Positions 22,261-62,081 of a stretch of DNA of 64,000 nucleotides are shown one piece after another; within the stretch, counting starts at the first letter, position 1; each line of letters begins with the position of its first letter. Where the stretch lies: the NCBI GenBank assembly GCA_934045905.1, contig OW203762.1, forward strand, positions 3,968,001 through 4,032,000, in the 5' to 3' direction. The notes beneath the pieces were generated by a model. The model saw only the letters and a list, made by a program, of their open reading frames with translations, made no database searches and was not told where the DNA came from. The DNA is from Leuctra nigra (lineage: Eukaryota > Arthropoda > Insecta > Plecoptera > Leuctridae). Both the position numbers and the translations under genes were made by a program.

Positions 22261-23825
22261 TGAGAATCAACCAGTGGTCGAATTGGGGGGAGGGGGGGGG
22301 GGGATGCGGGGGAGATGGAATTCCCCATGGGGAATATATTGATTGTTTCATCCCCCCATGGCTAATTTGATCACTTCACCATTCCCCCATGAAAGTTTCA
22401 CAATCAGCAGCTGTACCTCAAAATAATATCATTTTCAGTGAATTTTACAATTTCTGTCTCTGTAGATACCATTTGTTGAGATACAAATAGGCTTTAAAAG
22501 AAGCCAAAATAGCGTAAAAACGCACCAAGTTAATTTCTGAAGTAAAAAAATTCCAGACCTGTGTGCTCCAGACTTGCATGGTGCTGGAGGGGGGGGGGGG
22601 GGGGGGGGGCTTGCCAACGCCATTAACTTGTTTTCAAAGTGCCAATAGAGCAAAAACTGGCCTGCGGGGCAAGGAGGGGGCATGCCCAGTACATTCCAAA
22701 GAGTCAAAATTTAAAAAAAGTTGGATATTTAAACAAAAACATATCTTAAGAGGCAAACGGAAGCAAATGGCAATTGCACGGTTCTTCAGAGCGGTTTTTT
22801 GAAATATTGTCTTCCCACTAAATAATTTTAAAAAATCAGATAGTAACGACCCATAACAGCCTAAAAGACTAAATAATGCCACACACTGGAGTACTTTATG
22901 ACCTCTGATGCGACCTCAAAGTGTTAAATACGATTATTTTTCGTATTTTTCGATATATTTTCGTATTTAACACTTTGAGGTCGTACCAGAGGTCATAATG
23001 AACTCCAGTGTGCGGCATTATTTAGTCTATTAGGCTGTTATGGGTCGTTACTATCTGATTTTTTAAAATTATTAAGGGGGAAGACAAAATTTCAAAAAAA
23101 CGCTCTGACGAACCGTGCGATTCCCGTTCGCTTCCGTTTGCCTCTTAAAAGTAAAACGTCTCAAAATTGATTTCAAAGTGTCATAAAACCTTAAAACGCC
23201 CTACATGACAGGGTTGGAGGCGCACCTCCCTACCGTCCCCCTTATCCAGTGGCAAAGGGATTTTCTTACCTGCCCCCCCCCCCCCCCCACCCCCCTGACA
23301 GAAATCGATGTTCTTTCACCTGGCTGAATAATTATGATGATGATTTGGAAAGGTGGTGAAGAGTAGGTAAGGATGGAAGGTGGGATGGAGGCAGTCGTGG
23401 CCTATTAGTACTTAGTAAATAATACACCCCCCCCCCCCCCATGGGTTACTTTATAGGCCCACAGTTCATCGGGTCCGGCGTGCATATGACTCCGAAAAAA
23501 TTGGGAAGGCTCCTCTAGTGTGAATGAATTAAATAACTAATATTCTGGGGTTTTGCGTTATAACTCATTTGCTCATTTGTCATACTTTCTCCTAAAAGTC
23601 TTTAATTATACACAGAAATAGGTATATCTACGCCCAACACACGGGCCGGCCCTGAATATGATATCGTTTATATTTTCTGTGTTTTACAGTACCTATTACG
23701 AATCGTGGTGTTACATTCTCCGTGCTCGGTTTCACGATCATCAACACGTTATTCGAGTTGTACCTAATATTATTGTAGGTAACATTGTTTACCACAATGC
23801 ATTTAATTTTAAAACAATGTACAAA
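22261..23825. other. Non-coding, several G/C homopolymer runs
   Basis: It holds runs of G (22292-22303, 22589-22609) and C (23273-23288, 23427-23440), and a 400-bp palindrome (22745-23149). No gene is seen. Confidence 0.5.
22745..23149. repeat. Near-perfect palindrome, arms ~189 bp
   Basis: Arms 22745-22933 and 22961-23149 are inverted copies around a 27-bp AT spacer. Inner parts (CCTCAAAGTGTTAAATACGA and CCACACACTGGAGTAC) recur in short palindromic repeats near 11240, 14150, 45720-45830 and 57840-57890. It looks like a foldback MITE. Confidence 0.8.
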
Positions 23826-26106: not shown

Positions 26107-29070
26107 CTAGTGGAGCGGTCGCTCCACCCAGCCAAGTCGTACTATACACTCACAGTCACTCAACATACCGTAAATGCCTAATAAACTGAGGAGCAGACTA
26201 ACCACTTTTACTGTTAAAGCAACAACATGGCATTTTCGGCCTACTGGATCTCAAAATTGAAAAATCTCACATTGTTGCGAAATATCTTAATTTCGAGCTA
26301 TGGCCCACCCCACCCCATATACCAAATTTGGGAACAACAGGTTATGCCTTTTGCGAGCTAGAGGGCCGTGAAAACAGTGAAATTACACCCCTTTTAAAAG
26401 CTATCTGATGATGATGATTCAGATTCAGATCAGGAAACGTTGCTATCACCGCCACAGCCTAAACGGCTGAACCGATCAACCTCAAACTTTTACCACATGT
26501 GCACTTTTGGCGTATGATGATACCTTGCTCCTTGTGATTTTTTGTGCCGCCATTTTTAAACCGGAAGTGACGTCATATCTCAAAAACGTCTAGGCCGATT
26601 AGAACGAAATTAGCGCCATTCGATTAAGATGGTCATCTATATGAAGTATCAATAAAAAAAAAAAAAAAATCTTATTTTCTTAACCGGAAGTGACGTCATA
26701 AATACGCAATATTTAACTTATTTCAACAAATTATACTTAAAATACATACATAATTAACTTAAATAGTAACATAGACAATATAATTTATAAATTCAAGGTT
26801 GCAGTGTTCTCGGCCGCCATTCCTGAAACCGGAAGTGACGTCATATATCTAAAACGCCTGTACCGATTCCAACTGAACTAGCTCCTGCGTATTCATTCTG
26901 CTATTTATTTGAAAAATCAATTGCGAAAAATAAATAAACAAATTAACGGTACCGGAAATGACGGCAGGAACCACTTAATGAAACCGGAAGTGACGTCATA
27001 TATTACAAAGGGCATGACCGATTTTACGGAAATAAAGGGATTATGAATTCAGATGGTCGTTCATGAAGTATCAACTAGATAAAACTAGATTGTTTTCTTA
27101 TTACCTATACCGGAAATAACGTCATAAATATGCTAAATGACACTAAATTCACCACTTTATACTTTTAAATAGATATTAGTTAACGTACATTGTAAATAAT
27201 TATAAATTCAAGGTTGTAGTGTTCTCGGCCGTTATTTTTAAAACCGGAAGTGACGTCATGTATCGAAAACGGTTGTACTGATTGCAACCCAATTTAGGAA
27301 ATGTGTAGGCCTAATAATTATGAATTAAAGACGACATTATTTTTGGCCGCCATTGTTAAAACCGGAAGTGACGTCATATATCGAAAACGGCTGTACCAAT
27401 TGCAACCAAGTTTTGGAAATGTGTAGGACTAATAATTATGAATTAAACGACATTATTTTCGGCCGCCATTGTTAAAACCGGAATTGAAGTCATGTATCGA
27501 AAACGGCTGTACCGATTGCAACCAAATTTTGGAAATATGTAGGACTAATAATTATGAATTCAAGACGACATTATTTTCGGCCGCCATTTCAAAACCGGAA
27601 GTGACGTTATATATCGAAAACGGCTGTACCGATTGCTATCAAATTATGTAATTTTGTAGGACTTATAATTATGAATTCAAGACGACATTATTTTCGGCCG
27701 CTATTTCAAAACCGGAAGTGACGTCATATAATATCGAAAACGGATGGACCGATTGTAACGAAACCTAAGCTATATTCTTCTTGGATAATCATTTTAATCT
27801 TTTACCAAACGCAACTTTTCTTAGTACCTATCCAAATCGGTTGAGGCGTATTTTTTTAAAGAAATTAGTCCTTGCTCGGACATGTGCTACAAGCTGTATG
27901 AATAAACTCACAAAAGAAGTGATATCCCAGAAAAAAACACTCCGTGTAAAAAAGGCAGCCAAGTCACTTTACTTAAAAAAAATTCAACACCGAAAAGGAG
28001 TGATATCAAAAAAGGAGCCAAGTCAATGACATTTCCAAATATTTAATCGTATTTTTGAAATAAAAGAATAAACACCGAGAAATACTTTACAAAAGGACTT
28101 GGCGCATCGTTTTTTTAAAGACATTTTTCTATTCATAAGCATATGCCATTTATATACAACCGTCATTAAGAATTTTTAGAATAATAGGGAAACATCTTTC
28201 AATTACATATTATACATACCTGCTGTAAAATATTTTCTATTTGAATATTTACGCGATTAAACTTGTTGCCTATGCTTTCTATAAATACACAATTATAGTT
28301 ATCTTCGTAATATTGTTTCGTGGTCAACATAATTAAGTCTCATGCGTTATACCTTCGCATCATGAAATACATTTCAAATAATCCACATTTTATAACAATA
28401 CATTTCACAAAGTACAGTCACATTGTATTTATATTAAAAAATTTAACTTTATACACTTGACACTTCAAAAATATATAATAGTGTTCCATAGATAGTAAGT
28501 AATTATTTGACAACGTTTCATGATTTCCTTCAGTCAAGATCAAATTATGAAAAGATACCCTTCTAATATCACCATATTAACAGTACTGCAAGAATATGAG
28601 CCCACTTTCAATTGTTATTTAATTCTTCCATCCTTATATTACTTATCTATTACAGCATCAAATCTTTCTTCTATCGCCATTGACAAAACTATAAAATAGT
28701 CATTACTAAAAGTAGCTTAATTCATAGATTCTGGCTCTAATAGAAAGAGGAAAATGTACCAACTTATAAAATTCTTTCCACTTTTAGGATAGAATGATGT
28801 CTTTAAAAAAACGATGCGCCAAGTCCTTTTGTAAAGTATTTCTCGGTGTTTATTCTTTTATTTCAAAAATACGATTAAATATTTGGAAATGTCATTGACT
28901 TGGCTCCTTTTTTGATATCACTCCTTTTCGGTGTTGAATTTTTTTAAAGTAAAGTGACTTGGCTGCCTTTTTTACACAGAGTGTTTTTTTCTGGGATAGG
29001 CATTTACGGTATGTTGAGTGACTGTGAGTGTACGGTACGACTTGGCTGAGTGGAGCGACCGCTCCACTAG
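26107..29070 (+). mobile_element. Family X element, copy 4 (complete, 2964 bp)
   Basis: The only copy with both ends. The left end begins CTAGTGGAGCGGTCGCTCCAC and continues to AACATACCGTAAATGCCTA. The right end (28999-29070) is its inverse, giving ~70-bp TIRs. Each terminus can itself fold (GTGGAGCG / CGCTCCAC). The order is left TIR, leader, modules, ~117-bp tandem units (about 27190-27770), hairpin arms of ~200 bp (27923 onward and up to 28998) around an AT-rich loop, right TIR. No enzyme is encoded. Confidence 0.82.
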
Positions 29071-36644: not shown

Positions 36645-36777
36645 ATAGTTCGGTCTCAACCCCCATCGAGGTTGGAAGTGTTCTTCCCGACGTAAGTGTT
36701 CTTCCCGACGTCTGGTGTAGCGCAGACCGTGTGAGTTTTAAGTGTTTTATATTTTTGTATTTTCTCGCCTGATTAAC

Positions 36778-38007
36778 ATGGCATATGCTCACCGAGCCGC
36801 TCAACTAAACGCTAACAACTCTGCGCTTCACGCCGTGACATACGCTCGCATTTATACGCTCAAATGCGAATTTCAGCGAGGACTCGGCCTCCCGCGGCCA
36901 TCCTCTGCTGAAATTCATGAATGGATGCATTCCACGCTACACATTGATCCGGCGTCCGTCGACGCTCTTCAGCTCGACGGCGGTCAACAAGCAATCTATA
37001 TTAAATTTAACACCGGTCAACAGTGCGAGGCGGTCATCTCCAAGCACCGGGGCAGCGCGAAGTTCCGTCACAGTAATGACGTCATCAGCGATGTGGCGCT
37101 CCGACACGCTGACCTCGGGTACCGTACGGTGCGAGTGTTCAATTTACCTCGCGAAATGCCCAACGAAGTAATTCGCGCCCGATTGCAAACTTTTGGCTCC
37201 GTCCGTGAAGTCACCGAAGAATCGTGGTCCACCGCCTACCGTTACCAGGTTAAAAACGGGATACGGTCAGTCAAAATTGACCTGAAATCACACATACCAT
37301 CATACGTGATGATCGGTGGCTACCGGTCACTGATCACGTATGAGGGCCAATTAGCTACCTGCTCCATCTGCCATAGTACCTCACATTTTAGAAACGAGTG
37401 TACTCGTCCCAGACGCACTCCTACGCAGCTGCTTCCACTAGACGACTTTTCCTCTCATCCAACATCATTCCCAGTTCTCCCGAAGTCTGGGAACCCAGCT
37501 CGACCTTTGACCTCCCAAGTCACCCCTCCCGATGTCACTCAAGAGGCAATTGAGAAGGATCCTGAAATCACCCCCTCCTCCCCCTCTTCGCCGACAAGTG
37601 CCGCGATGTCTGGCGAGTCGGTCGGGTCGGAGCTGCCTACAGGGGTGTCCAACCCTGTTGTCCCTCTGGCCACTCATCCGTCGTCAGACAACATGGAAGT
37701 GGAAGACGCGACGAGGAAGCGTCCCATCTCACCAGGGGACGGGAAGCAGGTCCTCCAGAGGAAGAACAAGAAGGCTTCCTCCACGCCGTCCACACGCACT
37801 CGATCCAGGTCTCAAACCCCAGCACAGCATAAAGTTAACCTCGCGGCTCTTCGTGCCGACCTCCCAACCAATAATAACATCCCCAAAGTAACAGCAGCCG
37901 ACGTCCCAGCTAGCAGGGCGTCGAGTCCGTCCCATACCATCACCGAAAGCCAAAAACACCGTGGTGACCGCTGGTGTGAAGACAAGGAGCCGGACCCCGC
38001 AACATAG
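36778..38007 (+). CDS. LINE ORF1, Gag-like RNA-binding protein
   Basis: 409 residues. I chose the ATG at 36778 rather than 36742 because the extra N-terminal residues are hydrophobic and unlike the rest. Residues ~120-190 have an RRM-like pattern (VRVFNLPREMPNEVIRARL). A single zinc knuckle of the form CX2CX4HX4C lies at about 195-208 (CSICHSTSHFRNEC). The C-terminal half is Pro/Ser-rich and ends in a basic Lys/Arg patch (RKRPISPGDGKQVLQRKNKK). It probably coats element RNA in a ribonucleoprotein. It overlaps the ORF2 frame by 28 bases. Confidence 0.88.
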   Translation: MAYAHRAAQLNANNSALHAVTYARIYTLKCEFQRGLGLPRPSSAEIHEWMHSTLHIDPASVDALQLDGGQQAIYIKFNTGQQCEAVISKHRGSAKFRHSNDVISDVALRHADLGYRTVRVFNLPREMPNEVIRARLQTFGSVREVTEESWSTAYRYQVKNGIRSVKIDLKSHIPSYVMIGGYRSLITYEGQLATCSICHSTSHFRNECTRPRRTPTQLLPLDDFSSHPTSFPVLPKSGNPARPLTSQVTPPDVTQEAIEKDPEITPSSPSSPTSAAMSGESVGSELPTGVSNPVVPLATHPSSDNMEVEDATRKRPISPGDGKQVLQRKNKKASSTPSTRTRSRSQTPAQHKVNLAALRADLPTNNNIPKVTAADVPASRASSPSHTITESQKHRGDRWCEDKEPDPAT

Positions 38008-40769
38008 CAGGTCTACACATCGGATTTGCGAACTGCCGTGGATTTCCACGTAAAAAGCCACTGATCGAAAATCTCTGCTCTCACAACCGCCTCCATGTTC
38101 TCGGCCTGGCAGAGACCTGGACGTCGCCGCGTCACTCTCTACGCATGCCAGGACTCTCCTGCTACCGACGAGATCGCCCTTGCCCTCCTGGTCAGGCTCC
38201 CCGAGGAGGCGTCGCTCTCTTTATTGATCAACATCTTCCAGTCACTCAACTCACTCTGCCAAGGCGGTTTCAACATCACGAGGCAATAGTCTGCTCCATT
38301 CAACGTCCTAGAGGTCCCATTTTGGTCGCCCTTGTTTACATTCCTCCGCATATTCCTCTGGACTCACATGTTGAGTTCATCACCTATATCTCTTCTTTCC
38401 CAAACTTCATTATCATGGGAGATTTCAATGCTCGCCATGTCTCATTTGGGGACACGGCTTCGAACTCCAGTGGAATCACTCTAGTGGATCTCCTAATAGA
38501 TCTCCCACTCAATCGCCTCTACAACACTGCACCGACTTTTATCGGCGCCCTGGGTTCATCCATTCCTGACCACATTCTTGTCAGCGATGGGTTGACAGGT
38601 CACATGGGAGACGTGATCATTGGCCCCTCCATTGGCAGCGATCACCTCCCACTAATTGTCACCTCCGACGCCGTCGACGCCCCTCCCCTACGCCCCCTTC
38701 TTCGCGTGATCGCCGACTACAAGAACGCCAACTGGGACCTGTACCGCCACACCATAGACCGTCTGCTGCCAGACTCTCTGGACGTGAAGGACTGTGCTGG
38801 GATTCGAACATCAGTATCCCAGCTGATTGCCATCCTAAAACGAGGGGAGGCGGCAGCGATTCCGAAGAAAACCATCGATACTACCCGCCGCCCCCTGCCG
38901 CCACACATTCTAGCACTGATCCGCGAGAAGCGCCGGGTGTATAACAGTTTCAAGATTTCACGTGACCCAGTACTGAAGACAGAGTGGAACCGTTTAAACG
39001 CCATCGTCCGTCGCAGTGTCATCCGTCATCGCGAACATACATGGACGGAGGCTTGTTCCTCTCTCGACCACAGGAACGGTTCTAAATTCTGGCACAAATT
39101 TAAGTGTCTCACTGGCCAGAAGTCTCAGGAAGCAGTCCCACTGCTGGTCAACGGCGTCGTTCACGCCGCGGCGGCAGATAAAGCTAAAGTATTTGCCGCC
39201 TCCCTGTCTCGCACTTACGAGTTCCCTCAGAACGCTCTATTTGACTCGTCTTTTCGGGAAACAGTTGACGCCTCGCTATCTTCTCTCGAGCCGGCTCTCT
39301 CTTCGCACACTACTCTACCCGACAATGACGAGCCTCACAGCGAGTTGGCGGCTCCAATCACTGTCTCAGAGGTCCGCAACGCTGTTGGCAGGAGCAGGAA
39401 CTCAGCGCCTGGAGAGGACGGCATTAGAAAGGTCCTGCTTCTGCACGCTCCTGACAAACTCCTCGCTCATCTGTCGACGATCTTCACGGCGTGCCTCCAG
39501 CTTGGATACATACCTCCTCGCTTCAAAACCTCCGTCATCGTCATGATCGGGAAGGGCGCTCTTCCACAGACTGACCCTGGCAATCACCGTCCCATCAGCC
39601 TCCTGAACGTGCTCGCGAAGGTGCTGGAAAAGATCATCCAGATCCGTCTCTCCTCATTCGCTGAGGAGAACGGCCTCCTTCCCGAGGTCCATAGAGCAGG
39701 CCGCGGTACGACAGATCCACTTATACGCATCATCACCGATGTCACTGCCTCCCTGAACAGAGGGAGGTGTGTTCTGGCAGCCTTTTTAGATATCTCGAAG
39801 GCGTTCGACAAAGTATGGCACGCCGGCCTATGCTACAAACTGCTGCGTTTGAACGTGCCTCTGCCTCTCGTCCGTTTCCTTCGAGCTTTTCTGACAGATA
39901 GAATAGCCCGGGTCCGCGTCGAAGACACTCTCTCGGACCCCTTCACACCGCTGTCCGGCGTCCCCCAAGGATCTTGCCTCTCTCCGCTACTCTACCTACT
40001 CTATTGTCACGACATCCCAATGCCGCTCAATACCAAGACCTCGCTGGCGCAGTACGCGGACGACACAGTGTACTGGACCTCCGGCAGGACAGCACGGGAA
40101 TCCTTCCACGGCCTGCAAATACACATCTCCGCACTGCAGGAGTGGATGTCCAGATGGCGCGTACTGCCTAACGCCAGCAAGACCCAGTTCGTTCTGTTTC
40201 ACCACCGGCATAAATCGCAGCGTATCTCTCAACGCCCTCTCCTCCATTACATCTCCCTGTGGGGTGACCGCGTGTACCCCAGCAGTTCGGCCCGATACCT
40301 CGGCGTCACGCTCAACAACATCCTGAGCTGGTCGGAACACCTCGACGACGTCATCTGTCGGGCGCGCAAGCGTCTCAACCTGCTTGTCATGCTTCGCGGT
40401 CGACTGCAGGGATGTAGCTTCTCCACCCTCCGACATACCTACAAGATGTTCATCCGCCCCCTATTTGAATACGCCGCCCCCGCACTAGCGCCCGTCCAGG
40501 CACAACACCTGGCCCGCTACTCCTCACTAGAACGTCGAATACTCCGCCGCATCGCTCGCCTCCACCCTATGACTCGTAACGAGGACGTCTACGTTGCAAC
40601 GGGGATGGCTCCACTGGCAGAGCGTCTCTCCGCACTCGCCGACGCCTACGTCAATCGACTCGCCAACAACAATAGAGAGGAACTTTCCAACCTCCTCTCT
40701 ACAGTAATTACTTTCCCTCAAAAACCAAAATTCAAATACCCCTACCCTCCCCACGTACTGACACACTGA
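37980..40769 (+). CDS. LINE ORF2, endonuclease and reverse transcriptase
   Basis: The open frame runs from 37980 to the stop at 40767-40769, but its first ATG is at 38145, after the first endonuclease motifs (FANCRG, LAETW). Expression by frameshift or reinitiation at the ORF1/ORF2 overlap is therefore likely. Numbered from the 38145 Met: GDFNARH at 92-98 and SDHLP at 165-169 complete the APE-type endonuclease; FLDISKAFDKVW near 547, GVPQGSCLSPLLY, and the catalytic YADD near 637 define reverse transcriptase. No RNase H domain follows. It would nick the target and prime reverse transcription there. The frame shows no damage. Confidence 0.9.
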   Translation, partial: RQGAGPRNIAGLHIGFANCRGFPRKKPLIENLCSHNRLHVLGLAETWTSPRHSLRMPGLSCYRRDRPCPPGQAPRGGVALFIDQHLPVTQLTLPRRFQHHEAIVCSIQRPRGPILVALVYIPPHIPLDSHVEFITYISSFPNFIIMGDFNARHVSFGDTASNSSGITLVDLLIDLPLNRLYNTAPTFIGALGSSIPDHILVSDGLTGHMGDVIIGPSIGSDHLPLIVTSDAVDAPPLRPLLRVIADYKNANWDLYRHTIDRLLPDSLDVKDCAGIRTSVSQLIAILKRGEAAAIPKKTIDTTRRPLPPHILALIREKRRVYNSFKISRDPVLKTEWNRLNAIVRRSVIRHREHTWTEACSSLDHRNGSKFWHKFKCLTGQKSQEAVPLLVNGVVHAAAADKAKVFAASLSRTYEFPQNALFDSSFRETVDASLSSLEPALSSHTTLPDNDEPHSELAAPITVSEVRNAVGRSRNSAPGEDGIRKVLLLHAPDKLLAHLSTIFTACLQLGYIPPRFKTSVIVMIGKGALPQTDPGNHRPISLLNVLAKVLEKIIQIRLSSFAEENGLLPEVHRAGRGTTDPLIRIITDVTASLNRGRCVLAAFLDISKAFDKVWHAGLCYKLLRLNVPLPLVRFLRAFLTDRIARVRVEDTLSDPFTPLSGVPQGSCLSPLLYLLYCHDIPMPLNTKTSLAQYADDTVYWTSGRTARESFHGLQIHISALQEWMSRWRVLPNASKTQFVLFHHRHKSQRISQRPLLHYISLWGDRVYPSSSARYLGVTLNNILSWSEHLDDVICRARKRLNLLVMLRGRLQGCSFSTLRHTYKMFIRPLFEYAAPALAPVQAQHLARYSSLERRILRRIARLHPMTRNEDVYVATGMAPLAERLSALADAYVNRLANNNREELSNLLSTVITFPQKPKFKYPYPPHVLTH

Positions 40770-44270: not shown

Positions 44271-45101
44271 CCTTAAGTTTCCACAGAATATTGCAAATCA
44301 CACATTTTACATTTCTTTGAAAAGAATGACACAAATTAAAAATAGCTTAAAATTTGATTCTTTTGTATCAAAAATTCAAAAAAGGCCCTGCGGGGCTTAC
44401 TAGGGGGCGAGTTCCCCAGACCCCATGTAGCGGCGAACTACCTTTTCCTGACATCCATCGATACCCGAATATTTTGACCCCCTCTCTCAAAATAAAGTTC
44501 CTACGCGCCTGTAGAAGACGACATGCGTCAAATAATTTTGTATTTCAATTTATTTGAATATAATTGACAAATAATTCAAAGCAAGTCCGTAATGTTCGTA
44601 AAATGTCAATAACTCTTGACGATCTCGACAGATTTGCATGAAAACAAAAACACCTAAAATGTTAGTCCCGATGACCATGCAAATTATTGTGAAGTTGACC
44701 GGTCAAAAGGTTCTAGTTTTAATTTTCAATAAATCACGGGATCTCGTTCAAAACCTATTCCTGGAACCGCTCATATGACATTAGAGTGTGTACAAAATTT
44801 CAGGTCGATTGGTGGAACCATTGCTCACAAAAGTTAAAATAAAACAAATAAAGAAACATACAGAGAAGAACCTAAAGTGATGCTAAATTAAAATGACCTT
44901 GAGATTAAGTTAAGCAGGGTAAGCAAGGTATTGCTAGAATGTATTATAAACATTCTTGAAACATTTAATTTGATAATTGAACGAGAAAATATTTGTGAAT
45001 AATCGAACATTTTGAATTTTCACTCTCCGCAAATGTACAATAGTTTATGAAAACATTATGTTTTATGAAGAAATACCACTAAATGCTTTTTTTTTACACA
45101 G

Positions 45102-45279
45102 GTGCAGCCCTCGCAGCCACAGCCACCGCTGCCAATGCAGGCCTCCCCGCTGGCCCCACCGCAGGCCCCACCGCTGGCCCCCCCTCAGGACTCCTCGCAG
45201 GCCCCCCCTCAGGCCTCCTCGCAGGCCACTAGCCACGGGCCTCTGTCCGCTGAGGAAATCGAGCGCCTGCTACGACGCC
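45102..45279 (+). CDS. Exon 8 of unrecognised multi-exon gene
   Basis: 59 codons plus one base, phase 0 to 1, acceptor TTTTTACACAG (ends 45101), donor GTGAGT (45280). Pro/Gln/Ala-rich repeats (such as PLAPPQAPPLAPPQ) are followed by a short likely helix, LSAEEIERLLRR. The same helix-like ending recurs in exon 10 (VSDADIARLWRR). The ~120 bp of intron after the donor match those after exon 10. It ends the 30-kb intron that holds most transposons in this window. Confidence 0.75.
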
Positions 45280-45832
45280 GTGAGTGCATTCAAATATCTC
45301 ATTCCCAGTTCATTTAAAGTCGGCTGTACTGCAGGAGACATCGGAGATAATATTTTATAAATATATACTCATTACTTTTGGACCATTGCATTTACGAAAA
45401 TGTGAAACATAATTATAGCATAGCTAATTTCAGCTATAAATACCATAATAGAAAATCCTATATTTCTCTATTGTTTCAGCTAATTGACACGAGTTGCATT
45501 TTTCACATCTTTCATAATTTGAATCGTTCAAAAGATTTAGCGATGTATGAAATATTATCCCCAATGTTTACCTTCTAGTGCAGCCGACTTAAATTCAGGG
45601 GCAATGGAATTGGTCGAGGTTCAGTTCCTCAAAGAGTTTCTCTAGTTTTATCTTCACAAAAACAGAATTTAAGGAAATCAAATCAGCACATTTCAAGCTC
45701 AATGTATTAAATGCAGCCACACACTGGAGTACAATAGACCTCCCGTACGCCCTTAAATATGGCAATTATTGTTTAATAATCATATTGGTCATTTTAACAC
45801 TTTGGGGTCATAAACAAGGTCATAATTGTACC

Positions 45833-45838
45833 TACTCC
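45833..45838. repeat. 6-bp target duplication of the Polinton, left
   Basis: TACTCC, matched by 50598-50603. Removing the element restores a continuous stretch that also occurs uninterrupted at 62082-62103. Confidence 0.9.
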
Positions 45839-47438
45839 AGTAGATGCGAGATAGGGTTCCTGGCTCAGGATGAGGAGATGAGGAAAATCTAGGCTTAGAG
45901 CCTGACGTCACACCGATCAGTGGCTTAGCTATGAGTCATAGTAGTCGTATTTTGTCAACATGATGACTCATCGTTTGGACATTCAACTCTACACCTTATA
46001 GTTCTACAGAAATGTTATAAGTCACTCGCATGACATCATAGTGTCAACATGATGACTCATCATTTAGACATTGAACCCTACATTCACAGTTCTGTGAAAA
46101 TGTTATGGCCCATAGTAGTTGTATGACGTCATCACCTAATTTCAACATGATGACTCATCGTTTGTACATTGAACCCTAGTTCTGAGAAAATGCTATGAGT
46201 CACTCGTATGACGTCATCACCTAATTTCAACATGATGACTCATCGTTTGAACATTGAACCCTGCATCTAGTTGTGTTGTGATTAATGAAATAATGTGTTT
46301 TGCATCTTTTTATTCAACGTTAAAAGGTTGTTACTTAGTGAAAACTAAAACTAATCATTTTGATTCATTAAAAAATACGTTATTTTAATAATATTTGAGG
46401 AGAGTAGGTTGAGGGTGAAAAATGATTTACTCTTAATAATGAGTCGGTTAAGTTTGCTTATAAATGATTATCAAGTTCATGACTTTTAATTTAACTTAGT
46501 TTTATTTTAAATTTTCAACATTATATAAAATCAGATTCTAGTCACAACTTGATATTTTTCATAAGCTCCCCTAAAAGATCTCGACACATGTTTTTCTTAT
46601 TTTGTTCACTATTGAAAGCATATAAATGATACATTCAAAATATTATAAATTATCCCATTAAAATTATTATATATAAAAATATTGTTACAATTCACTTTTT
46701 TCTTAATTGTAGAGCATAACTGTTGAAATGATCTTGTCCTTCATATTGAATTTGATATAAACGTTTTTCGTTAATTTCCTTCAAATCATCATCATTAAAT
46801 ACATCGTTGAAACGTTTTGGTAAAAAAAATTTGATTGCGAAATGTTGCTCTTCTCCAATTTTTGGTTGGCATTCCGAGACATAGGAAACTGTTGCCAGGA
46901 GAGATGGACCATATCTTGTCTTGACACGTTTCATTTCTTCGATGGTGTACCACGCCAGGTGCTCCATTTCACATATTTTCTTCACTGGAATCATAGCTGA
47001 GATGTTCACGCTTCCCACATTGTTGAATTTCTCTACGAACGTCTAAAACAAATCAATGAAAGAAAAGAGTTTTACAAATGCTTTGATTTAATTGTAATAC
47101 AAATACATCCTAATATTTTTAAATGAAATTACTCACCATTGTTATGTTGAGATGATTTACTGCAGCGAAGAGCAAAGTGTTGAACGATGTCGACTGCTGA
47201 AGGTTGAAGGCTGTACTGATGACGACTCGCAAAATTTCAAGACACATCCGCTTCTTGATATTGTCAATTCATCAATTCACAAACGAAATATTGATGACGT
47301 TGTATTATTCTCACGAAACAGAAAGTTGGAGAATCACTCACTGAATATGCAATAGTTAGCATTTCTTTGAAATTTCAAGATTCATTTCTTTTAATAAAAA
47401 ATCCATTCCTAATTCAAACACAGCTCTCTGATTAATTT
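45839..47438 (+). repeat. Polinton left terminal inverted repeat (1600 bp)
   Basis: It is the inverse of 48998-50597; both ORFs inside translate identically in the two arms, so identity is close to complete. The outer ~430 bp hold imperfect 80-100-bp repeats with CATGATGACTCATCG. In this arm TGACTCA or TGAGTCA occurs six times and TGACGTCA three times. Confidence 0.9.
46692..47139 (-). CDS. TIR-encoded unknown protein, left copy (spliced)
   Basis: Mirror copy of 49297-49744. The body exon is 46692-47042 on the - strand, with an acceptor just before 47042, and the ATG would be at 47139-47137 beyond a ~94-bp intron. 117 residues are predicted. Motifs include VKKICEMEHLAWYTIEEMKR and RYGPSLLATVSYVSE. 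The pattern of a short protein with RV-x-TRYG-x-S resembles small uncharacterised proteins I associate with insect mobile DNA, but I cannot name a family. A single-strand DNA-binding role is only a guess. Confidence 0.6.
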
Positions 47439-47455
47439 GAAGTGAAAAAACCGAC

Positions 47456-47710
47456 ATGTTTCAACTGGAGCCAAGATTGAAATCATTTGCATCATTCCCG
47501 AATGACAATGTCACCGCACGCGACTTGGCCGAGGCTGGATTCTACTATATATTCCATGGAGACAAAGCTGCTTGCCCTTTGTGTGGAATAGTGATAAATA
47601 AATGGTTGCCTCAAGACATCCCGTTTTATGAACATAAACACTGGAGCCCTGATTGTATGTTCATTCGAGGTTTACCTATGGATGCGAAGAGTACTGTTGT
47701 TAAGGATTAA
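47456..47710 (+). CDS. BIR-domain protein (IAP-like) of the Polinton
   Basis: 84 residues, beginning 18 bp after the left repeat ends. The whole protein is one baculoviral IAP repeat. Start RLKSF.SFP, then a helix with AEAGFYY, then the zinc site C40-X2-C43-X16-H60-X6-C67 with spacing exactly as in BIR domains, including the D-x-P-x-x-EH and W-S-P-x-C-x-F segments. BIR proteins of viruses and cells bind caspases or their activators; here an anti-apoptotic role is inferred from family only. There is no RING finger, so it would not be a ubiquitin ligase by itself. The stop is 6 bp before the protease ATG. Confidence 0.88.
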   Translation: MFQLEPRLKSFASFPNDNVTARDLAEAGFYYIFHGDKAACPLCGIVINKWLPQDIPFYEHKHWSPDCMFIRGLPMDAKSTVVKD

Positions 47711-47716
47711 TTTAAA

Positions 47717-48232
47717 ATGTATGCAAATGTATTAAAAAATGCACTTTCTCAAGATAAATATACTAAAGATTTATTTATTGGTGTTTTTGCTGCTGATACA
47801 CTACCTAAACATGTGGGTCGTCCGATTCAATTGATTGCCAATACAGACATAGCAAGGTGCAAGGGTCAACATTGGGTCGCTTGTCACATTAATACGCATG
47901 GAAATGGGGAATTTTTTTGTAGTTTTGGCTATCCCCCGCTCATTCGACAACACCGTCAATTTCTAAATCAACATTGTAAAAGCTGGACATATAATCGTAT
48001 TCCACTACAAAGCGTTACATCAAATGTTTGCGGTGAATATTGCGCTATTTTCTTAGCTCATAGAGCTAGAGGGAAAACACTAAATTCGTTTCTCAAACAT
48101 TTTAATAAAAAATCACCTGAAAAAAATGATCGACTCGTGAGATCAACCTATTTTAAAATATTCGGCCACTGCATGAAACATGACACCGGATATGGTGGAC
48201 AGTGCTGTTGCGCACGTGCAATCAAAAAATAA
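47717..48232 (+). CDS. Adenain-like cysteine protease (Polinton PRO)
   Basis: 171 residues. N-terminal GVFAADTLP matches the opening of adenovirus/Polinton proteases. The catalytic His is H52 (KGQHWVACHIN), the oxyanion Gln is Q98 (IPLQSV), and the nucleophile is C105 (SNVCGEYC). The position normally holding the acidic triad member (F-D/E-S/P-F-G) is Cys68 (EFFCSFG), which is unusual. In adenoviruses this protease matures capsid proteins; no capsid gene exists here. It follows the BIR gene with a 6-bp gap, so both may come from one transcript. The frame is intact. Confidence 0.85.
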   Translation: MYANVLKNALSQDKYTKDLFIGVFAADTLPKHVGRPIQLIANTDIARCKGQHWVACHINTHGNGEFFCSFGYPPLIRQHRQFLNQHCKSWTYNRIPLQSVTSNVCGEYCAIFLAHRARGKTLNSFLKHFNKKSPEKNDRLVRSTYFKIFGHCMKHDTGYGGQCCCARAIKK

Positions 48233-48414
48233 TGCGCATTTCATAGGAGAGGTCAATGTCCTGCATTTCCTGTTCAAACCTGTCTTGTTTCAAAGTAAAA
48301 ATGCTGACGATTACATTTTGTTAGATTCAATTTGATTTGCGATTTACCATGAAAGAGGTCAGTTACCTCTGAAGATTTATCGAAGATAGTTGAAATTGTA
48401 TATTTAAAAAAAAA

Positions 48415-49080
48415 ATGGAAATCACTCCAGCAATAGACGAAAAACCATTGCTCGGTGTTGTGCAATCACTTTTCTATGTGAATCCATATCGATCAAAACT
48501 GATTATCGTTGGGCTGAATGCTGAAGATGAATTTACACCGTTTGTTAAATTAATTTCATCAGTAAATGGTTTTGGTGTGATTTTATCGTTTTTGGAATGG
48601 ACAGAATTTTTGGAAGAACTTAAGATGTGGTCCACATATGCATTTATCATCGATGTTCGAGATTCACCTCAGAAAGTGTTTGATAATCATACCATGTTTG
48701 TTGAAGAAAATGTTCATGGGAAATATATTGGTTTAAAATGTATAAGTAATGTGAATTTCGGTGTGATTTTAAGTGAAACGACATGTAAAGAAATTTTGAG
48801 GCAATCAGAAGCCATCACTTTTACTCTTACACAAGTCAAAGAAAAAAGCAGTGGTGTAAAGAATGCGTATTGCAGATTTGTGAAAACAACGTTAAATAAT
48901 TATCTAAAAACACGATTAATTAAAAAATCTGATGTTAATATGGATGATTTGTCCCATTTTGTTAAAACTATTGTGAAAATGAATAATCAACGTGATAAAA
49001 TTAATCAGAGAGCTGTGTTTGAATTAGGAATGGATTTTTTATTAAAAGAAATGAATCTTGAAATTTCAAAGAAATGCTAA
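48415..49080 (+). CDS. Polinton unknown protein, 221 aa
   Basis: An intact ORF whose last 83 bases lie inside the right inverted repeat. It has hydrophobic beta-like runs (SKLIIVGLNAED, GFGVILSFLEWTEF) and a Lys/Asn-rich C-terminal half likely to be helical. No motif was recognised. A strand-plus-'LEW/F' pattern followed by a basic region is seen in some small DNA-binding proteins, but that is speculation. Codon use is AT-rich like the other element genes and unlike the host exons. Confidence 0.6.
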   Translation: MEITPAIDEKPLLGVVQSLFYVNPYRSKLIIVGLNAEDEFTPFVKLISSVNGFGVILSFLEWTEFLEELKMWSTYAFIIDVRDSPQKVFDNHTMFVEENVHGKYIGLKCISNVNFGVILSETTCKEILRQSEAITFTLTQVKEKSSGVKNAYCRFVKTTLNNYLKTRLIKKSDVNMDDLSHFVKTIVKMNNQRDKINQRAVFELGMDFLLKEMNLEISKKC

Positions 49081-50597
49081 CTATTGCATATTCAGTGAGT
49101 GATTCTCCAACTTTCTGTTTCGTGAGAATAATACAACGTCATCAATATTTCGTTTGTGAATTGATGAATTGACAATATCAAGAAGCGGATGTGTCTTGAA
49201 ATTTTGCGAGTCGTCATCAGTACAGCCTTCAACCTTCAGCAGTCGACATCGTTCAACACTTTGCTCTTCGCTGCAGTAAATCATCTCAACATAACAATGG
49301 TGAGTAATTTCATTTAAAAATATTAGGATGTATTTGTATTACAATTAAATCAAAGCATTTGTAAAACTCTTTTCTTTCATTGATTTGTTTTAGACGTTCG
49401 TAGAGAAATTCAACAATGTGGGAAGCGTGAACATCTCAGCTATGATTCCAGTGAAGAAAATATGTGAAATGGAGCACCTGGCGTGGTACACCATCGAAGA
49501 AATGAAACGTGTCAAGACAAGATATGGTCCATCTCTCCTGGCAACAGTTTCCTATGTCTCGGAATGCCAACCAAAAATTGGAGAAGAGCAACATTTCGCA
49601 ATCAAATTTTTTTTACCAAAACGTTTCAACGATGTATTTAATGATGATGATTTGAAGGAAATTAACGAAAAACGTTTATATCAAATTCAATATGAAGGAC
49701 AAGATCATTTCAACAGTTATGCTCTACAATTAAGAAAAAAGTGAATTGTAACAATATTTTTATATATAATAATTTTAATGGGATAATTTATAATATTTTG
49801 AATGTATCATTTATATGCTTTCAATAGTGAACAAAATAAGAAAAACATGTGTCGAGATCTTTTAGGGGAGCTTATGAAAAATATCAAGTTGTGACTAGAA
49901 TCTGATTTTATATAATGTTGAAAATTTAAAATAAAACTAAGTTAAATTAAAAGTCATGAACTTGATAATCATTTATAAGCAAACTTAACCGACTCATTAT
50001 TAAGAGTAAATCATTTTTCACCCTCAACCTACTCTCCTCAAATATTATTAAAATAACGTATTTTTTAATGAATCAAAATGATTAGTTTTAGTTTTCACTA
50101 AGTAACAACCTTTTAACGTTGAATAAAAAGATGCAAAACACATTATTTCATTAATCACAACACAACTAGATGCAGGGTTCAATGTTCAAACGATGAGTCA
50201 TCATGTTGAAATTAGGTGATGACGTCATACGAGTGACTCATAGCATTTTCTCAGAACTAGGGTTCAATGTACAAACGATGAGTCATCATGTTGAAATTAG
50301 GTGATGACGTCATACAACTACTATGGGCCATAACATTTTCACAGAACTGTGAATGTAGGGTTCAATGTCTAAATGATGAGTCATCATGTTGACACTATGA
50401 TGTCATGCGAGTGACTTATAACATTTCTGTAGAACTATAAGGTGTAGAGTTGAATGTCCAAACGATGAGTCATCATGTTGACAAAATACGACTACTATGA
50501 CTCATAGCTAAGCCACTGATCGGTGTGACGTCAGGCTCTAAGCCTAGATTTTCCTCATCTCCTCATCCTGAGCCAGGAACCCTATCTCGCATCTACT
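48998..50597 (-). repeat. Polinton right terminal inverted repeat (1600 bp)
   Basis: Inverse of 45839-47438; the inner border is at AAATTAATCAGAGAGC (48998). It contains the end of the 221-aa ORF and a full copy of the spliced unknown gene, so that gene is duplicated and the copies point outward. Confidence 0.9.
49297..49744 (+). CDS. TIR-encoded unknown protein, right copy (spliced)
   Basis: The proposed start is ATG 49297-49299, followed at once by a GTGAGT donor (49300); the acceptor TTTTAG ends at 49393 and the coding exon is 49394-49744. The intron is 94 bp and separates only the Met from the rest. Without splicing the first Met is internal (49418) and eight upstream residues would be lost. 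117 residues are predicted, ending in Lys-Lys. Conserved-looking parts are MIPVKKICEMEHLAWYTIEE and FFLPKRFNDVFNDDDLKE. The function is unknown. Confidence 0.6.
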
Positions 50598-50603
50598 TAC
50601 TCC
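50598..50603. repeat. 6-bp target duplication of the Polinton, right
   Basis: TACTCC, identical to 45833-45838. Confidence 0.9.
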
Positions 50604-50695: not shown

Positions 50696-50869
50696 ACGCG
50701 CCACGCGCCCAGACCCAGGCCCCGCCTCAGGCCCAGACCCAGGCCCCGCCTCAGGCCCAGACCCAGGCCGAGCCAGAGGCACAGGCCCCGGCAGCAGGGC
50801 CATCGTCGGCAAACGATGAGGCCCCTCCAGTGAGGCACACGATGAGGCACACGGCCCATGAGCCTCACA
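50696..50869 (+). CDS. Exon 9 of unrecognised multi-exon gene
   Basis: 174 bp, phase 1 to 1, acceptor TTGTCTTTTGCAG (ends 50695), donor GTGAGT (50870). Gln/Ala/Pro repeats (units of QTQAPPQA), then AGPSSANDEAPP and a His/Arg/Thr section (RHTMRHTAHEPH). Being symmetric in phase, it can be included or skipped without changing the frame. The ~60 bp before the acceptor match those before exons 10 and 11. Confidence 0.72.
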
Positions 50870-51476
50870 GTGAGTACATACAACATGTCATTCAAGTGAT
50901 ACCTAATACTCCGGTATTGTTAAGAAGTGTGAACTTGATGTTTTAAGATTCCCTTCGTGGGAAGTCGAAACTGTACAAAACACTGATAATTGTGATTAGA
51001 GATAACAGTAAACTATGAATTTAATGATGTTTTTCAGTACTTGCAAAACACACGCGTAAGATTTTGCAGCAAGCCTATTCTTGAGTTTCATGTCAACATT
51101 GAAAAAAAACATACAAGTTTATTAAAAAATAAATAAAATAAATAATTTAAGGATCACTGAGAAAAATCACTTCGATAGGTATTCAATAACTCGACACTTG
51201 AAATTTTGGATCGAACTTGCCAAAGTCGTAGCTAAGACATGGGGCCTGTGGATTGGAAACGGGTTATTTTGATTTGCATCACTTTCTTTACCTGCGCGCG
51301 CACAATGCCCCGTTGATACGTCTCTTAGGTTGACCTCACTAGAGAGCTAACAAAACACTGGGTTATAAGAAACGTTCAATCCTCAGATCGCATGTTGGTT
51401 TCAGAGTATGAGTAAAGTTTAATTTAGAAATTGCCTCCAGCTATAAGTAGGTTCAAGGTTGTGTTGTCTTGTGCAG
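50870..51476. other. Intron 9, no other feature
   Basis: AT-rich intron; the last ~200 bp (51236-51430) are duplicated upstream of exon 11 (62280-62440), sharing GCTAACAAAACACTGGG and ATAAGAAACGT. The duplication includes the acceptor. Confidence 0.55.
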
Positions 51477-51788
51477 ATGCGCCTCCTAACAACATGGCCG
51501 AGCAGACCGCCCCGGGCCCACTGCGAGCACCACGGCAGGCCCCCCACCCCCCGCAGGGCCCACTGCGAGCACAACGACAGGCCCCCCACCCCCCGCAGGG
51601 CCCACTGCGAGCACCACGGCAGGCCCCGCCGCAGGGCCCACTGCGAGCACAACGACAGGCCCCGCCGCAGGGCCCACTGCGAGCACCACAACAGGCCCCC
51701 CACCCCCCGCAGGGCCCACTGCGAGCACCACGGCAGGCCCCGCCGCTATTGGTGAGCGATGCGGACATCGCGCGGCTGTGGAGACGAA
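51477..51788 (+). CDS. Exon 10 of unrecognised multi-exon gene
   Basis: 312 bp, phase 1 to 1, acceptor TTGTCTTGTGCAG (ends 51476), donor GTGAGT (51789). It encodes six repeats of a 12-15-residue unit with GPLRAPRQAP and GPLRAQRQAP, at the DNA level a minisatellite with GGCCCACTGCGAGCACCACG. The exon ends LLVSDADIARLWRR, echoing exon 8. Other reading frames across this exon are also open because of the repeat, but only this one agrees with the splice phases. Confidence 0.75.
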
Positions 51789-51915
51789 GTGAGTTCATTC
51801 AAATATCTCATTCCGAGTTCATTCAAGAGTCGGCTGCACTCGAAGTAGACACTGGAGATAATATTTACTTCGGTAAAATCGTCATGACTTTTGGACCATT
51901 GAATCATGGACGAAT

Positions 51916-53435
51916 CTAGTGGAGCGGTCGCTCCACCCAGCCAAGTCGTACTGTACACTCACACTCACTCAATGTACCGTAAATGCCTAATAAGCTGAGG
52001 AGCATACCAAACACTTTTACTGTAAGCAACAACATGGCATTTTCGGCCTACTGGATCTCAAAATTGGGAAATCTCACATTGTTGAGAAATATCTTAATTC
52101 TGAGTTAAGTGACTAGACCTACACTTCCCCCGCCCCACCACTGGGAAGAGCGTCAACTTGCAATGCTGCCAATGCTAATCCTTGAAGCACAAAAAAGTCC
52201 TGGAGCCGAAAATTCCCATCGCCATCTTCCACGTGACAGTGGAAGTAAATGAACAGTCGATGGCTCAGTCGATAAGGTTGCCATAGCAATCTACACAAAA
52301 GTATAGGGAATAAACAAATCTGACAGCGGCAATCCAAATCTCATATTTAGAGTGATTACTCGTGAAAGAAAGATATTTAAGTAAGTACAAGTTAATAATA
52401 ATACGCTATATTCATCCATACACATGTACAAGTTAAATATTCATCTGATGAACATGATTTACAGCTATTATTTATTTATAGCTTTGACACATTTCCCCTA
52501 CCAGAGAATCCTCCATTTTTCTACCACTGTGACGTCACGAGCAGGATTCCTATAGTAAACGCATTAAATACGTACATAGTAATTAAAAATACATGTATTT
52601 ATTCATTTATATATTTATTTATAAATATATACGTAAATATTCATATACATATTTACATATTTAGATTATATATGTAACGAATAGTTCTCTCAGTTCTTAC
52701 CACCACAGCGTTTCAGGAGCGCTGCGGTTTTTCGGCTCCCGATTTCCAACGCTTGTTATTGGCCATTTTCAGACCGCGAGAATTTGAAAGTTGACGCTCT
52801 TTACGTGTGGTGGGGCGGGGTAAGTGTAGGTCTAGTCTCTTTAATTCCGAGCTATGGCCCACCCCACCACATATACCAAATTTTAGGACAATAGGTTATG
52901 CTATTTGCGAGCTAGAGGGCCGTGAAAACAGTGAAATTACACCCCTTTTAAAAGCTATCTGATTCAGATTCAGATATCAGAAAACACCGCTGTCACCGCC
53001 ACAGCCTAAACGCTGAACCGATATATCTGACATTTTTACCACATGTGCACTTTTGGCGTCTGATGACACATTTTTTGTGACGCCATTTTGAAACCGGAAG
53101 TGACGTCATATACCAAAAATGGATGGACCGATCGATACGAAACTTCCACCAAACGATTCAGATGGTCTTCTTTATAAAATATCAATAGTCGAAATTGAAA
53201 AGTTACAATTACCAAAACCGGAAATGACGTCACAAAAATGACAAATCTGACTAAAATCATCTCTTATAACAATAACTACATATTTCGCAGGCTTATAATG
53301 TTACATAACTTTATAAATACAAATTTTATGTGGCAGTGATGTCAACCGCCATTTTGAAAACCGGAAGTGAAGCCATAACTCGAGAACGGCTGGACCGATT
53401 GGAACGAAACTTTCGCTATACTTCATAACATATTA
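51916..53435 (+). mobile_element. Family X element, copy 6 (3'-truncated)
   Basis: Left end CTAGTGGAGCGGTCGCTCCAC at 51916, inserted 127 bp after exon 10 in sequence that is uninterrupted after exon 8. The leader is split by a 736-bp insertion. A few GCCGCCATTTTGAAAACCGG modules follow. It is cut off at 53435 by an H element. Confidence 0.75.
52105..52840. mobile_element. Inverted-repeat element inside X copy 6
   Basis: Ends contain GACTAGACCTACACTT and its inverse, followed by CCGCCCCACCAC and GAGCGTCAACTT. It is flanked by the 11-bp TTAATTCYGAG (52094-52104, 52841-52851), single in other X copies. The section about 52260-52480 is also found inverted at about 57100-57310. No ORF is credible. 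Confidence 0.6.
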
Positions 53436-59144: not shown

Positions 59145-62081
59145 TGATGATGATATCAGAAAAAGTTGCTGTCACCGCCACAGCCTAAACGGCTGAACCG
59201 ATCAACCTGAAATTTTTACCACATATGCACTTTTGGCGTCTGATGATACCTTGCTCTTATAAATTTTTTGTGACGCCATTTTTAAACCGGAAGTGACGTC
59301 ATATATAAAAAACGGCTAGACCGATTAGAACGAAATTAGCGCCATTCGATTAAGATAGTCATCTATATGAAGTATGTTACTAAAAAATATAATTTTCTTA
59401 TTTTCTAAACCGGAAGTGACGTAATAAATTCGCAATATTTAGCTTATTTCATCAAATTATACTTTAAATACATATATAATTAACTTACATTGTAACATAG
59501 ACAATACAAATTATAATTTCAATATACAGTGTTCTCGGCCACCATTCCTGAAACCGGAAGTGACGTCATATATCGAAAACGCCTGTACCGATTACAACTG
59601 AACTAGCTCCTGTCTGTTCATTCTGCAATCTATTTGAAAAATCAATTGGGATAAAAAATATACAAATTTACGTTACCGGAAATGGCGGCAGGAACCACTA
59701 AATGAAACCGGAAGTGACGTCATATATTGAAAACGGCATGACCGATTTGACGGAAATTAGCGCTAATGAATTCAGAAGGTCATTCATGAAGTATCAACTA
59801 GATAAAACTAGACAGTTTTTTTTTATTACCTATACCGGAAATGACGTCATAAATATTCTAAATGACGTCATTAATATGCTAAATGACACTAAATTCACCA
59901 CTTTATACTTAAAAATAGATATTTAGTAAACGTACATTGCAAATAATTATAAATTCAAGGTTGCAGTGTTCTCGGCCGCCATTTTCAAAACCAGAAGTGA
60001 CGTCATATATCGAAAACGGCTGTACCGATTGCAACCAAATTTTGGAAATGTGTAGGACTAATAATTATGAATTAAAGACGACCTAATTTTCGGTCGCCAT
60101 TGTTAAAACCCCGGAAGTGACGTCATATATCGAAAACGGCTGTACCTAATGTAACCAAATTTTGGAAATATGTAGGACTAATAATTATGAATTCAAGACG
60201 ACATTATTTTCGGCCGCCATTTCATAACCGGAAGTGACGTCATATATCGAAATCAGCTGTACCGAATGAAACCAAAATTTGGAAATATGTAGGACTAATA
60301 AATATTAATTCAAGACACAATATTTTCGGCCGCCATTTCATAACCGGAAGTGACGTCATATATCGAAAACGGCTGTACCGATTCTAACCAAATTATGCAA
60401 TTATGCAGGACTTATAAATTTATGAATTCAAGTTGATATTATTTTTGGCCGCCATTTCAAAACCGAAAGTGACGTCATATATCGAAAAAGGCTGAACTGA
60501 TTACAACCAAATTATGCAATTATGTAGGACTTATAATTATAAATTCCAGACGACATTTTTTTCGGCCGCCATTTCAAAACCGGAAGTGACGTTATATATC
60601 GAAAACGGCTGTACTTATTGTAACCAAATTGTGCAATTATGTAGGACTTATAATTATGAATTCAAGACGACATTATTTTTGGCCGCTATTTCAAAATCGG
60701 AAGTGACGTCATATATCGAAAACGACTGCACAGATTTCAGCTTAATTATGCAATTATGTTGCACTTATAATTATGAATTCAAGGCGGCAGTATTATCGGG
60801 CGCCATTTTTTAAACCGGAAGTGACGTCAGATATCGAAAACGGCTGGACCGATTGTAACGAAACTTAGGCTTTTTTCCTTGGATAATCATTTTAAGCTTA
60901 TTCCAAACGTAACTTTTCTTAGTAACCAAATCGGTTGAGGCGTATTTTTTTAAAGTAATTAGTCCCTTCCTCCGACTTGTGTTACAAGCTTAATGAATAA
61001 ACTAACAAAAGAAATGATATCCCAGAAAAAACACTCCGTGTAAAAAAGGCAGCCAAGTCTCTTTACTTTAAAACAATTCAACACCGAAGATGAGTGATAT
61101 CAAAAAAGGAGCCAAGTCAATGACATTTCCAAATATTTAATCGTATTTTTGAAATAAAAGAATAAACACCGAGAAATACTTTACAAAAGGACTTGGCGCA
61201 TCGTTTTTTTAAAGACATTTTTCTCTTCATAAGCATAAGCCATGTATATACAACAGTCATTAAGAATTTTTAGAATAATAGGGAAACATCTTTCAATTAC
61301 ATATTATACATACCTACTGTAAAAATGTTCTATTTGAATATATACGCGATGAAACTGGTTGTCTATGTTTTCTATAAATACACAATAGTTATCTTCGTAA
61401 TATTGTTTCGTGGTCAACATAATTAAGTCTCATGCGTTATACCTTCTCATGAAATACATTTTAATTAATCCACATTTTACATTAATACATTTCACAAAGT
61501 ACACAGTCACATTGAATTTGTTTAAACATTTTAACTTTATACACTTGACACTTCAAAAATATTATATAATAGTGTTCCATAGATAGTTAGTAATTATTTG
61601 ACAACGTTTTATGATTTCCCTCAGTCAAGATCAAATTGTGAAAATATACCCTTCTAATATCACCATATTAACAGTGCTTTAAGAATATATATGAGCCCAC
61701 TTCCTTGTTATTTAATTCTTTCACCATATTACTTATCTATTACAACATGAAATCTTTCTTCTATCGCCATTGACAAAACTATAAAATAGCCATTACTAAA
61801 AGTAGCTTGATTCATAGATACTGGCTCTAAAGAAAGAGGAAAATGTACCTACTTGTAAATTTCTATCCACTTTTAGGATATAATGATGTCTTTAAAAAAA
61901 CGATGCGCCAAGTTCTTTTGTAAAGTATTTCTCGGTGTTATACTTTTATTTCAAAGATACGATTAAATATTTGGAAATGTCATTGACTTGGCTCCTTTTT
62001 TGATATCACTCCTTTTCGGTGCTGATTTTTTTAAAGTAAAGAGACTTGGCTGCCTTTTTTACACGGAGTGTTTTTTCTGGG
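58794..62081 (+). mobile_element. Family X element, copy 7
   Basis: Left end CTAGTGGAGCGGTCGCTCCAC; CTT and GATGAT simple repeats at 59081-59145; modules; then an array of ~117-bp units (about 59950-60850; spacings 116-120 bp); hairpin with arms of ~200 bp (61018 onward, up to 62081) around an AT loop that is conserved with copy 4. The right TIR is missing. Confidence 0.8.
59950..60850 (+). repeat. ~117-bp minisatellite inside X copy 7
   Basis: About eight units, each with GGCCGCCATTTCAAAACCGG, AAGTGACGTCATATATCG, AAAACGGCTGTACCGATTGC and a GTAGGACTAATAATTATGAA section. Spacing between successive AAGTGA marks is 120, 117, 116, 119, 117, 117 and 118 bp. The same unit forms arrays in copies 3 and 4. 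Confidence 0.85.

Follow-up and report, generated by a model that had tools for sequence, protein, structure and literature searches.

The stretch of DNA analysed here (the window) covers 64,000 nucleotides of the 536-Mb Leuctra nigra genome (contig OW203762.1, positions 3,968,001 to 4,032,000), and at 45839-50597 it contains a miniature Polinton derivative of about 4.8 kb. The element is bounded at 45839 and 50597 by the termini AGTAGATGCG...CGCATCTACT, which are of the AGTAGA...TCTACT type and agree with the published Polinton end motif (AGT)2 at 5 of 6 bases. A perfect 6-bp target-site duplication (TSD), TACTCC, flanks it on both sides, at 45833-45838 and 50598-50603. Between the ends lie two arms of 1600 nt each and a single-copy loop of 1559 bases (47439-48997, plus strand). 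The left arm (45839-47438, minus strand) is an inverted copy of the right 1600 bp of the element (48998-50597, plus strand), and the two arms are 100% complementary with zero mismatches, which confirmed the element, duplication, Polinton ends and arms described in an earlier reading of the letters alone (the sequence-only reading). The symmetry of the arms stops at the element ends, where the 60-bp flanks were equal at only 11 of 60 positions.

The loop contains a row of open reading frames (ORFs) on the plus strand. The ORF at 47456-47710 encodes 84 aa with a BIR domain (Pfam, E 3.9e-19), in which we read what we take to be the zinc pattern CX2C-X16-H-X6-C, and comparison with other copies marked it as the 5′-truncated remnant of a protein of about 261 aa. 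An ORF of 171 aa for an adenain-like cysteine protease (47717-48232) starts 6 bp after the BIR stop codon, and ORF3 of 221 aa (48415-49080) runs with its last 83 bases into the right arm. The right arm also carries a probable two-exon gene on the plus strand (49297-49744), composed of an ATG at 49297-49299, an intron at 49300-49393, and a second exon at 49394-49744. Since the arms are identical, an identical second copy of this gene lies on the minus strand of the left arm at 46692-47139. Its splicing is probable, as judged from the GT...AG borders, and exon 2 was conserved in the relatives. The sequence-only reading was right about the 6-bp spacing, the BIR domain and the adenain-like protease; its “intact” BIR gene proved to be the C-terminal part of a frame of about 261 aa, and its gene list had overlooked ORF3 and the probable arm gene.

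The protease and ORF3 were the only two stop-to-stop ORFs of at least 140 aa in the element, which agreed with the claim that replication and capsid genes are absent. Of the components of an autonomous Polinton, no ORF for a protein-primed polymerase B was recognised within 45839-50597, the rve integrase was missing among the element's ORFs, and no ORF of the element was recognised as a major capsid protein or packaging ATPase. The 6-bp TSD, the inverted-repeat termini of AGT type and the adenain-like protease are those of a Polinton, and the ends resemble those of long elements in the same genome, as in a non-autonomous derivative.

These long elements were found with the first 301 bases of the arm as query, in the genome search for copies with the same terminal inverted repeats (TIRs) and a long relative that the sequence-only reading had proposed. 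They were about 14.1-14.4 kb long on C11, C12, C1, C13 and C4 and 16.8 kb long on C9. Perfect 6-bp duplications were present in all 6 elements checked (C11, C1, C9, C12, a 7.8-kb element on C3 and a 10.4-kb element on C9), the check taking in four long relatives and two members of a related set (C3 and C9), with C13, C4 and L041 outside it. The gene content of the long relatives was read from pieces of two elements, C1 and C12. The C12 piece contained an integrase (PF00665, 1.3e-11), and the pieces of both contained an ATPase-like ORF, with Pfam values of 0.01-0.1 that lay under the cut-offs and, in C1, the Walker A motif GPTSCGKS. Another ORF of the C1 relative carried the motifs DVNNLYG, NAVFGKTM and FTDTDS, presumably those of family-B polymerases, and no Pfam polymerase model matched it. 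A mobile, non-autonomous Polinton derivative, as had been proposed, is thus supported, and mobilisation in trans is plausible given the polymerase-motif, integrase and ATPase-like ORFs in these pieces. Of 239 candidates in the protein search with the C1 polymerase piece, 82 were scored, giving 82 matches; in the search with the 1559-base loop, 40 of 86 candidates were scored, which yielded 41 further matches (93-98%), some of them pieces of one copy. Match counts are lower bounds; the polymerase of L043, an element described below, lies outside the 82.

The alignment of these relatives revealed what the miniature consists of. The right ends of six long relatives (C11, C1, C12, C9, C13, and C4) were colinear with element positions 1603-4759 at 95.3-96.8% identity, the colinear part beginning at 1593 in C9 and ending at 4738 in C13 and 4560 in C4. 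The left and right ends of each of these six matched one another over 249-358 bases only (88.5-96.0%), and the left ends of the C11, C1, C9 and C12 elements matched element positions 1-339 at about 90%. The short TIR that the long relatives naturally have corresponds to the first ~339 bp of the arm (45839-46177). Because the right arm is colinear with the six relatives, and their left ends match over 249-358 bp only, the left arm must be read as a mirrored right end. These alignments showed that the miniature retains 3.16 kb from the right-hand side of a longer Polinton, and that the whole left and middle part is replaced by the terminal 1600 bp of the right-hand side in inverted form. One parental end together with its inverted copy around a loop is the structure of a snap-back (fold-back) molecule, and we consider it highly probable that the element is such a derivative of a full-length Polinton.

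The join, at 47439-47440, consists of two bases that separate the arm side from the BIR side. When the 100 bases around it (47391-47490) were used as a query, other copies matched at bases 1-48 with their ORF3/arm side and at bases 51-100 with their BIR side; the window alone matched across the whole join and was by far the best match (40 of 121 candidates scored). The element does not have the appearance of a collapsed full Polinton, the join of arm and loop having been found at no other scored place. Other copies share both its ends and its ORFs, so the refutation that the sequence-only reading had set out for the lack of such copies fails.

The position of the join also accounts for the gene content. 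In the long relatives, BIR protein, protease and ORF3 follow one another in this order next to the right end, and the spacing of 6 bp between the first two recurred in those fetched relatives of two subfamilies, sets A and B, in which both frames are preserved. Most fetched copies had the BIR domain at the end of a frame of about 261-264 aa, and the frames of L011, L029, L033 and L035 were shorter. The genome-wide search gave 124 BIR matches, 103 of them in open frames of at least 200 aa (one with a stop inside the match), and the window's own BIR frame is 89 aa long. In the divergent element L049 the order was capsid-like ORF, BIR protein, protease and ORF3, at identities of 33% between its BIR protein and that of L010, and of 49% (protease) and 25% (ORF3) to those of the window. 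We take the L033 and L049 ORFs to be capsid-like from their motifs; the ORF of L033 had no Pfam match above the cut-off. The repetition of this order in so divergent an element indicates that the BIR protein is a regular gene of these Polintons. Comparison with the long relatives showed that about two thirds of the BIR protein is cut away at the join, and the ATG of the 84-aa ORF starts 15 bases past it, so the BIR sequence reads as a cut-off remnant and not as retained cargo. The protease was retained because it adjoins the mirrored right end, and the gene content of the miniature follows because everything within 3.16 kb of that end was carried along. The suggestion that an apoptosis-related gene had been kept or acquired for a purpose is accordingly not supported, and the puzzle of a protease without a capsid, which the sequence-only reading took to point to trans-packaging or a new role, is accounted for by position.

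The loop proved to be of mixed origin. The comparison took in three elements of set A (L009, L010, and L017, out of 20 fetched loci) and five of set B (C11, C1, C12, C13, and C9), and reached to about 49990 for set A. Identity to set A was 98-100% from 47591 to about 48450, and identity to set B was 94-100%, mostly 98-100%, between about 48490 and the element's end. Within 47591-47740 the set B element on C11 also reached 99.3%, both sets were equal at 47741-47890, and the first 150 bases of the compared stretch were about 87-90% identical to both. The loop is thus a mosaic of two subfamilies that changes over near 48.4 kb, in keeping with an origin among several Polintons undergoing replication together.

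Polintons are regarded as virus-like and as copied in the form of linear DNA from protein-primed ends, a view based, for animals, mostly on gene content. During such replication, a strand started at the right end would halt about 3.16 kb in, and the nascent strand would fold back about 1.6 kb from its start and be copied to its own 5′ end. The product would be short, and each of its ends would carry an origin and an integrase site; the polymerase and integrase of a helper could then replicate and integrate it in trans. We infer this route from the structure, in which a single fold-back step would account together for the arm, the loop and the missing left part, with both ends still usable. Integrated snap-backs flanked by TSDs would be the product expected from faulty linear replication followed by integration in trans.

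Comparable molecules exist in linear viruses. Adenovirus produces defective genomes with symmetrical ends, in which one end is replaced by an inverted copy of the other; they share with the element, presumably, protein-primed linear replication and the mirroring of one end, and differ from it in that the adenovirus molecules are unintegrated. The snapback genomes of adeno-associated virus (AAV) are short, with one end mirrored on itself, and the asymmetric ones have a single-strand loop (PMC8235507). The likeness extends there to left- and right-end types and to the need for helper functions, and the difference is that of packaged parvovirus molecules, with another replication system, from integrated Polinton DNA with 6-bp duplications (PMC8235507). 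Against the vertebrate Polinton/Maverick set, described as 12.7-24.6 kb long with TIRs of 46-1447 bp, 6-bp duplications and ends of (AGT)2 type, the element is alike in its 6-bp duplication, AGT-type ends, long TIRs and adenain-like protease, and different in its length of 4.8 kb and TIR of 1600 bp (PMC8097293). The long relatives in this genome resemble Polintons/Mavericks in their polymerase-motif, integrase and ATPase-like ORFs. The element departs from them in that its TIR is a mirrored end containing a gene, and in that polymerase, integrase, ATPase and capsid ORFs went unrecognised. Foldback (FB) and other long-TIR DNA transposons presumably share the very long inverted repeats around a loop; the element is distinguished from FB by its Polinton-type ends, its 6-bp duplication and its known long relatives. 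Homologues of anti-apoptotic genes are mentioned for mammal-associated adintoviruses, which are relatives of Polintons (PMC11071296). Among open-licence papers, no title dealt with a non-autonomous, fold-back or snap-back Polinton or with a Polinton BIR gene, and scans of the public collections viral_contigs and genome_contigs confirmed no relative.

Other origins have to be weighed against the snap-back. A full-length insertion might have been rearranged in place, its right end converting the left end and the middle then being deleted; the TSD and the ends would likewise survive such events, and this chromosomal two-step route could yield the same product. It would require that a conversion run the whole length of the arm and that about 11 kb be deleted at a common breakpoint, two other mirrored elements have other TSDs and one of them a different arm length, and the loop is a mosaic of two subfamilies, all of which makes the rearrangement improbable. 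Somewhat less probable still is a miniature shaped by selection, in which BIR and protease were kept or acquired as helpful genes, for anti-apoptosis, for trans-packaging with a helper or for a new role of the protease. It is true that the protease, ORF3 and the full BIR domain are all open and that BIR-bearing frames are common in the genome, as the 124 matches show. Against selection stand the truncation at the join with its loss of about two thirds of the BIR protein, a gene content that equals what adjoins the right end of the relatives, and the failure to find a second copy of the join among the 40 of 121 candidates scored. Least of all do we believe in an artefact of assembly or of read fold-back. 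Fold-backs of long reads presumably yield perfect palindromes, and a locus at C12:18.76 Mb is mirrored into its flanks; in the window, by comparison, the mirror ends exactly at the element ends with flanks equal at 11 of 60 bases, the TSD is perfect and the loop is present once.

Further mirrored elements were observed in the genome. Three right-end mirrors, including that of the window, had perfect duplications. L022 (C12:2389265-2398813) has arms of 3888 bases with 17 mismatches, the TSD GTCATA and a loop of 1773 bases that is colinear with L010 at 99.6%, and C4:13438984-13453951 has the TSD CACAGG and 1 mismatch across the 1345 arm bases compared (arms only). In L043, two polymerase-like ORFs to which PF03175 gave no match lie between arms of about 1.6 kb that are 98.3% identical, and the duplication is TCAAAT; at C9:21.24 Mb the arms, at least 2657 bases long, are 99.4% identical, and the duplication is CACTTT. 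For both there is no normal relative for comparison, and one arm may be natural. At C4:7.27 Mb, the sister pair of C4:5.10 Mb, the centre is a palindrome of 3825 bases at 99.1%. The spacing of neighbouring polymerase matches recurred as well: six convergent pairs were spaced 5.364-5.373 kb, three 5.820-5.823 kb, and three divergent pairs had a spacing of 10.498-10.606 kb. The genome thus contains mirrored Polintons repeatedly, some groups of them with equal spacing at several places.

A number of observations weigh against the snap-back. No template is obvious for the two bases at the join. L049, with arms of 3660 bases at 99.97%, and C4:5.10 Mb, with 2 mismatches in 2936 arm bases, have ends that are unequal by three bases, and a 6-bp duplication was not found at either; the flanks of L049 were equal at 23 of 60 bases. 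For C13:77-82 kb (5 mismatches in 3873) the ends lay outside the stretch read. At C12:18.757-18.775 Mb (L056, L057, and L059) the arms were identical over 2767 bases and the mirror continued into the flanks, so that this locus, a larger inverted duplication or an assembly artefact, was excluded from the mirrored elements. The pair counts are to be read with similar care. All 8 pairs of neighbouring BIR matches no more than 15 kb apart were divergent, versus 0.4 pairs expected, in a count over 120 of the 124 matches in which pairs on C1, C2 and C7 were counted but unread. The 82 polymerase matches formed 11 convergent, 6 divergent and 1 same-strand pair within 15 kb, versus 0.19 expected, and two of the 17 inverted pairs were read, in part. 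Both expected numbers presume random insertion.

That mirrored Polintons form a standing class that replicates and spreads as mirrors is a tentative proposal, to which we give rather less than an even chance. If true, the class could act in the manner of defective interfering genomes, exploiting full-length Polintons and perhaps keeping them in check, and it would be a genomic record of animal Polintons replicating as free linear DNA. Snap-back derivatives also offer a signature that can be counted and dated in any assembled genome, through arm length, loop and arm divergence. The case also counsels caution in taking short Polintons with odd cargo for functional gene capture.

The proteins of the element were compared with databases. 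By itself the protease ORF had no Pfam match, and a profile built with five relatives matched S273R of African swine fever virus (2.8e-9) and adenain (7.8e-6). His52, Gln98 and Cys105, whose catalytic roles we assume from adenain, are kept, and Cys68 stands in the usual acidic position, occupied by Asp in all 5 database relatives. That Cys68 might be a defect peculiar to the window's element was considered and ruled out, as Cys was present in L049 and in 29 of 32 aligned protease pieces of the same genome, the remaining 3, in L022 and L025, being the ends of pieces that carry frameshifts. Cys68 is thus a trait of the family. The adenain-like proteases of this genome have Cys at the position of the triad acid both in the window (47717-48232) and in L049 (6379-6909), families that are only 49% identical. 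Judged by the profile, the ORF encodes an adenain-like, putative protease.

A fusion of BIR and protease, suggested by frames of 254-264 aa, was dropped when the extra length was seen to lie upstream and the protease to be separate. For the N-terminal part of the BIR protein, matches in the PDB to trans-sialidase (0.0012) and to designed “Pizza” proteins (0.00014) were judged not credible; its look is possibly exonuclease-like. ORF3 had a single database relative (P0006, 57% identity over ORF3's length), a poor structure prediction (mean pLDDT 33.8) and a possibly PC4-like look. For the exon of the arm gene, a homologue search gave no match and the prediction was again poor (mean pLDDT 37.1); the look of the arm gene is possibly OB-fold-like.

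The outer arm contains four spaced repeats with TGASTCA or TGACGTCA sites (45955-46268, mirrored at 50168-50481), spaced 85-98 bases apart. In the outer 440 bases of the arm 9 such sites were counted versus a mean of 0.28 in 5000 Markov sequences, a count of sites that sit in repeats and so are not independent. They span 45903-46243, mirrored at 50193-50533, and resemble AP-1 and CRE elements. Elsewhere in the window, tandem arrays with a unit of 117-118 bases that contains TGACGTCA lie at 23820-24736, 27236-27763 and 59942-60863, and probably account for most of the 36 TGACGTCA sites outside the element. An ORF of a LINE-type retrotransposon with endonuclease and reverse transcriptase domains was found at 37980-40769, preceded by an ORF (36742-38007) without a Pfam match. 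The element itself is flanked by similar proline/glutamine-rich repeats at 45058-45360, 50707-50867 and 51428-51919, of which 50707-50867 is bordered, by eye, by splice-like sites; a single host gene may have these repeats as exons, in which case the element would lie in one of its introns.

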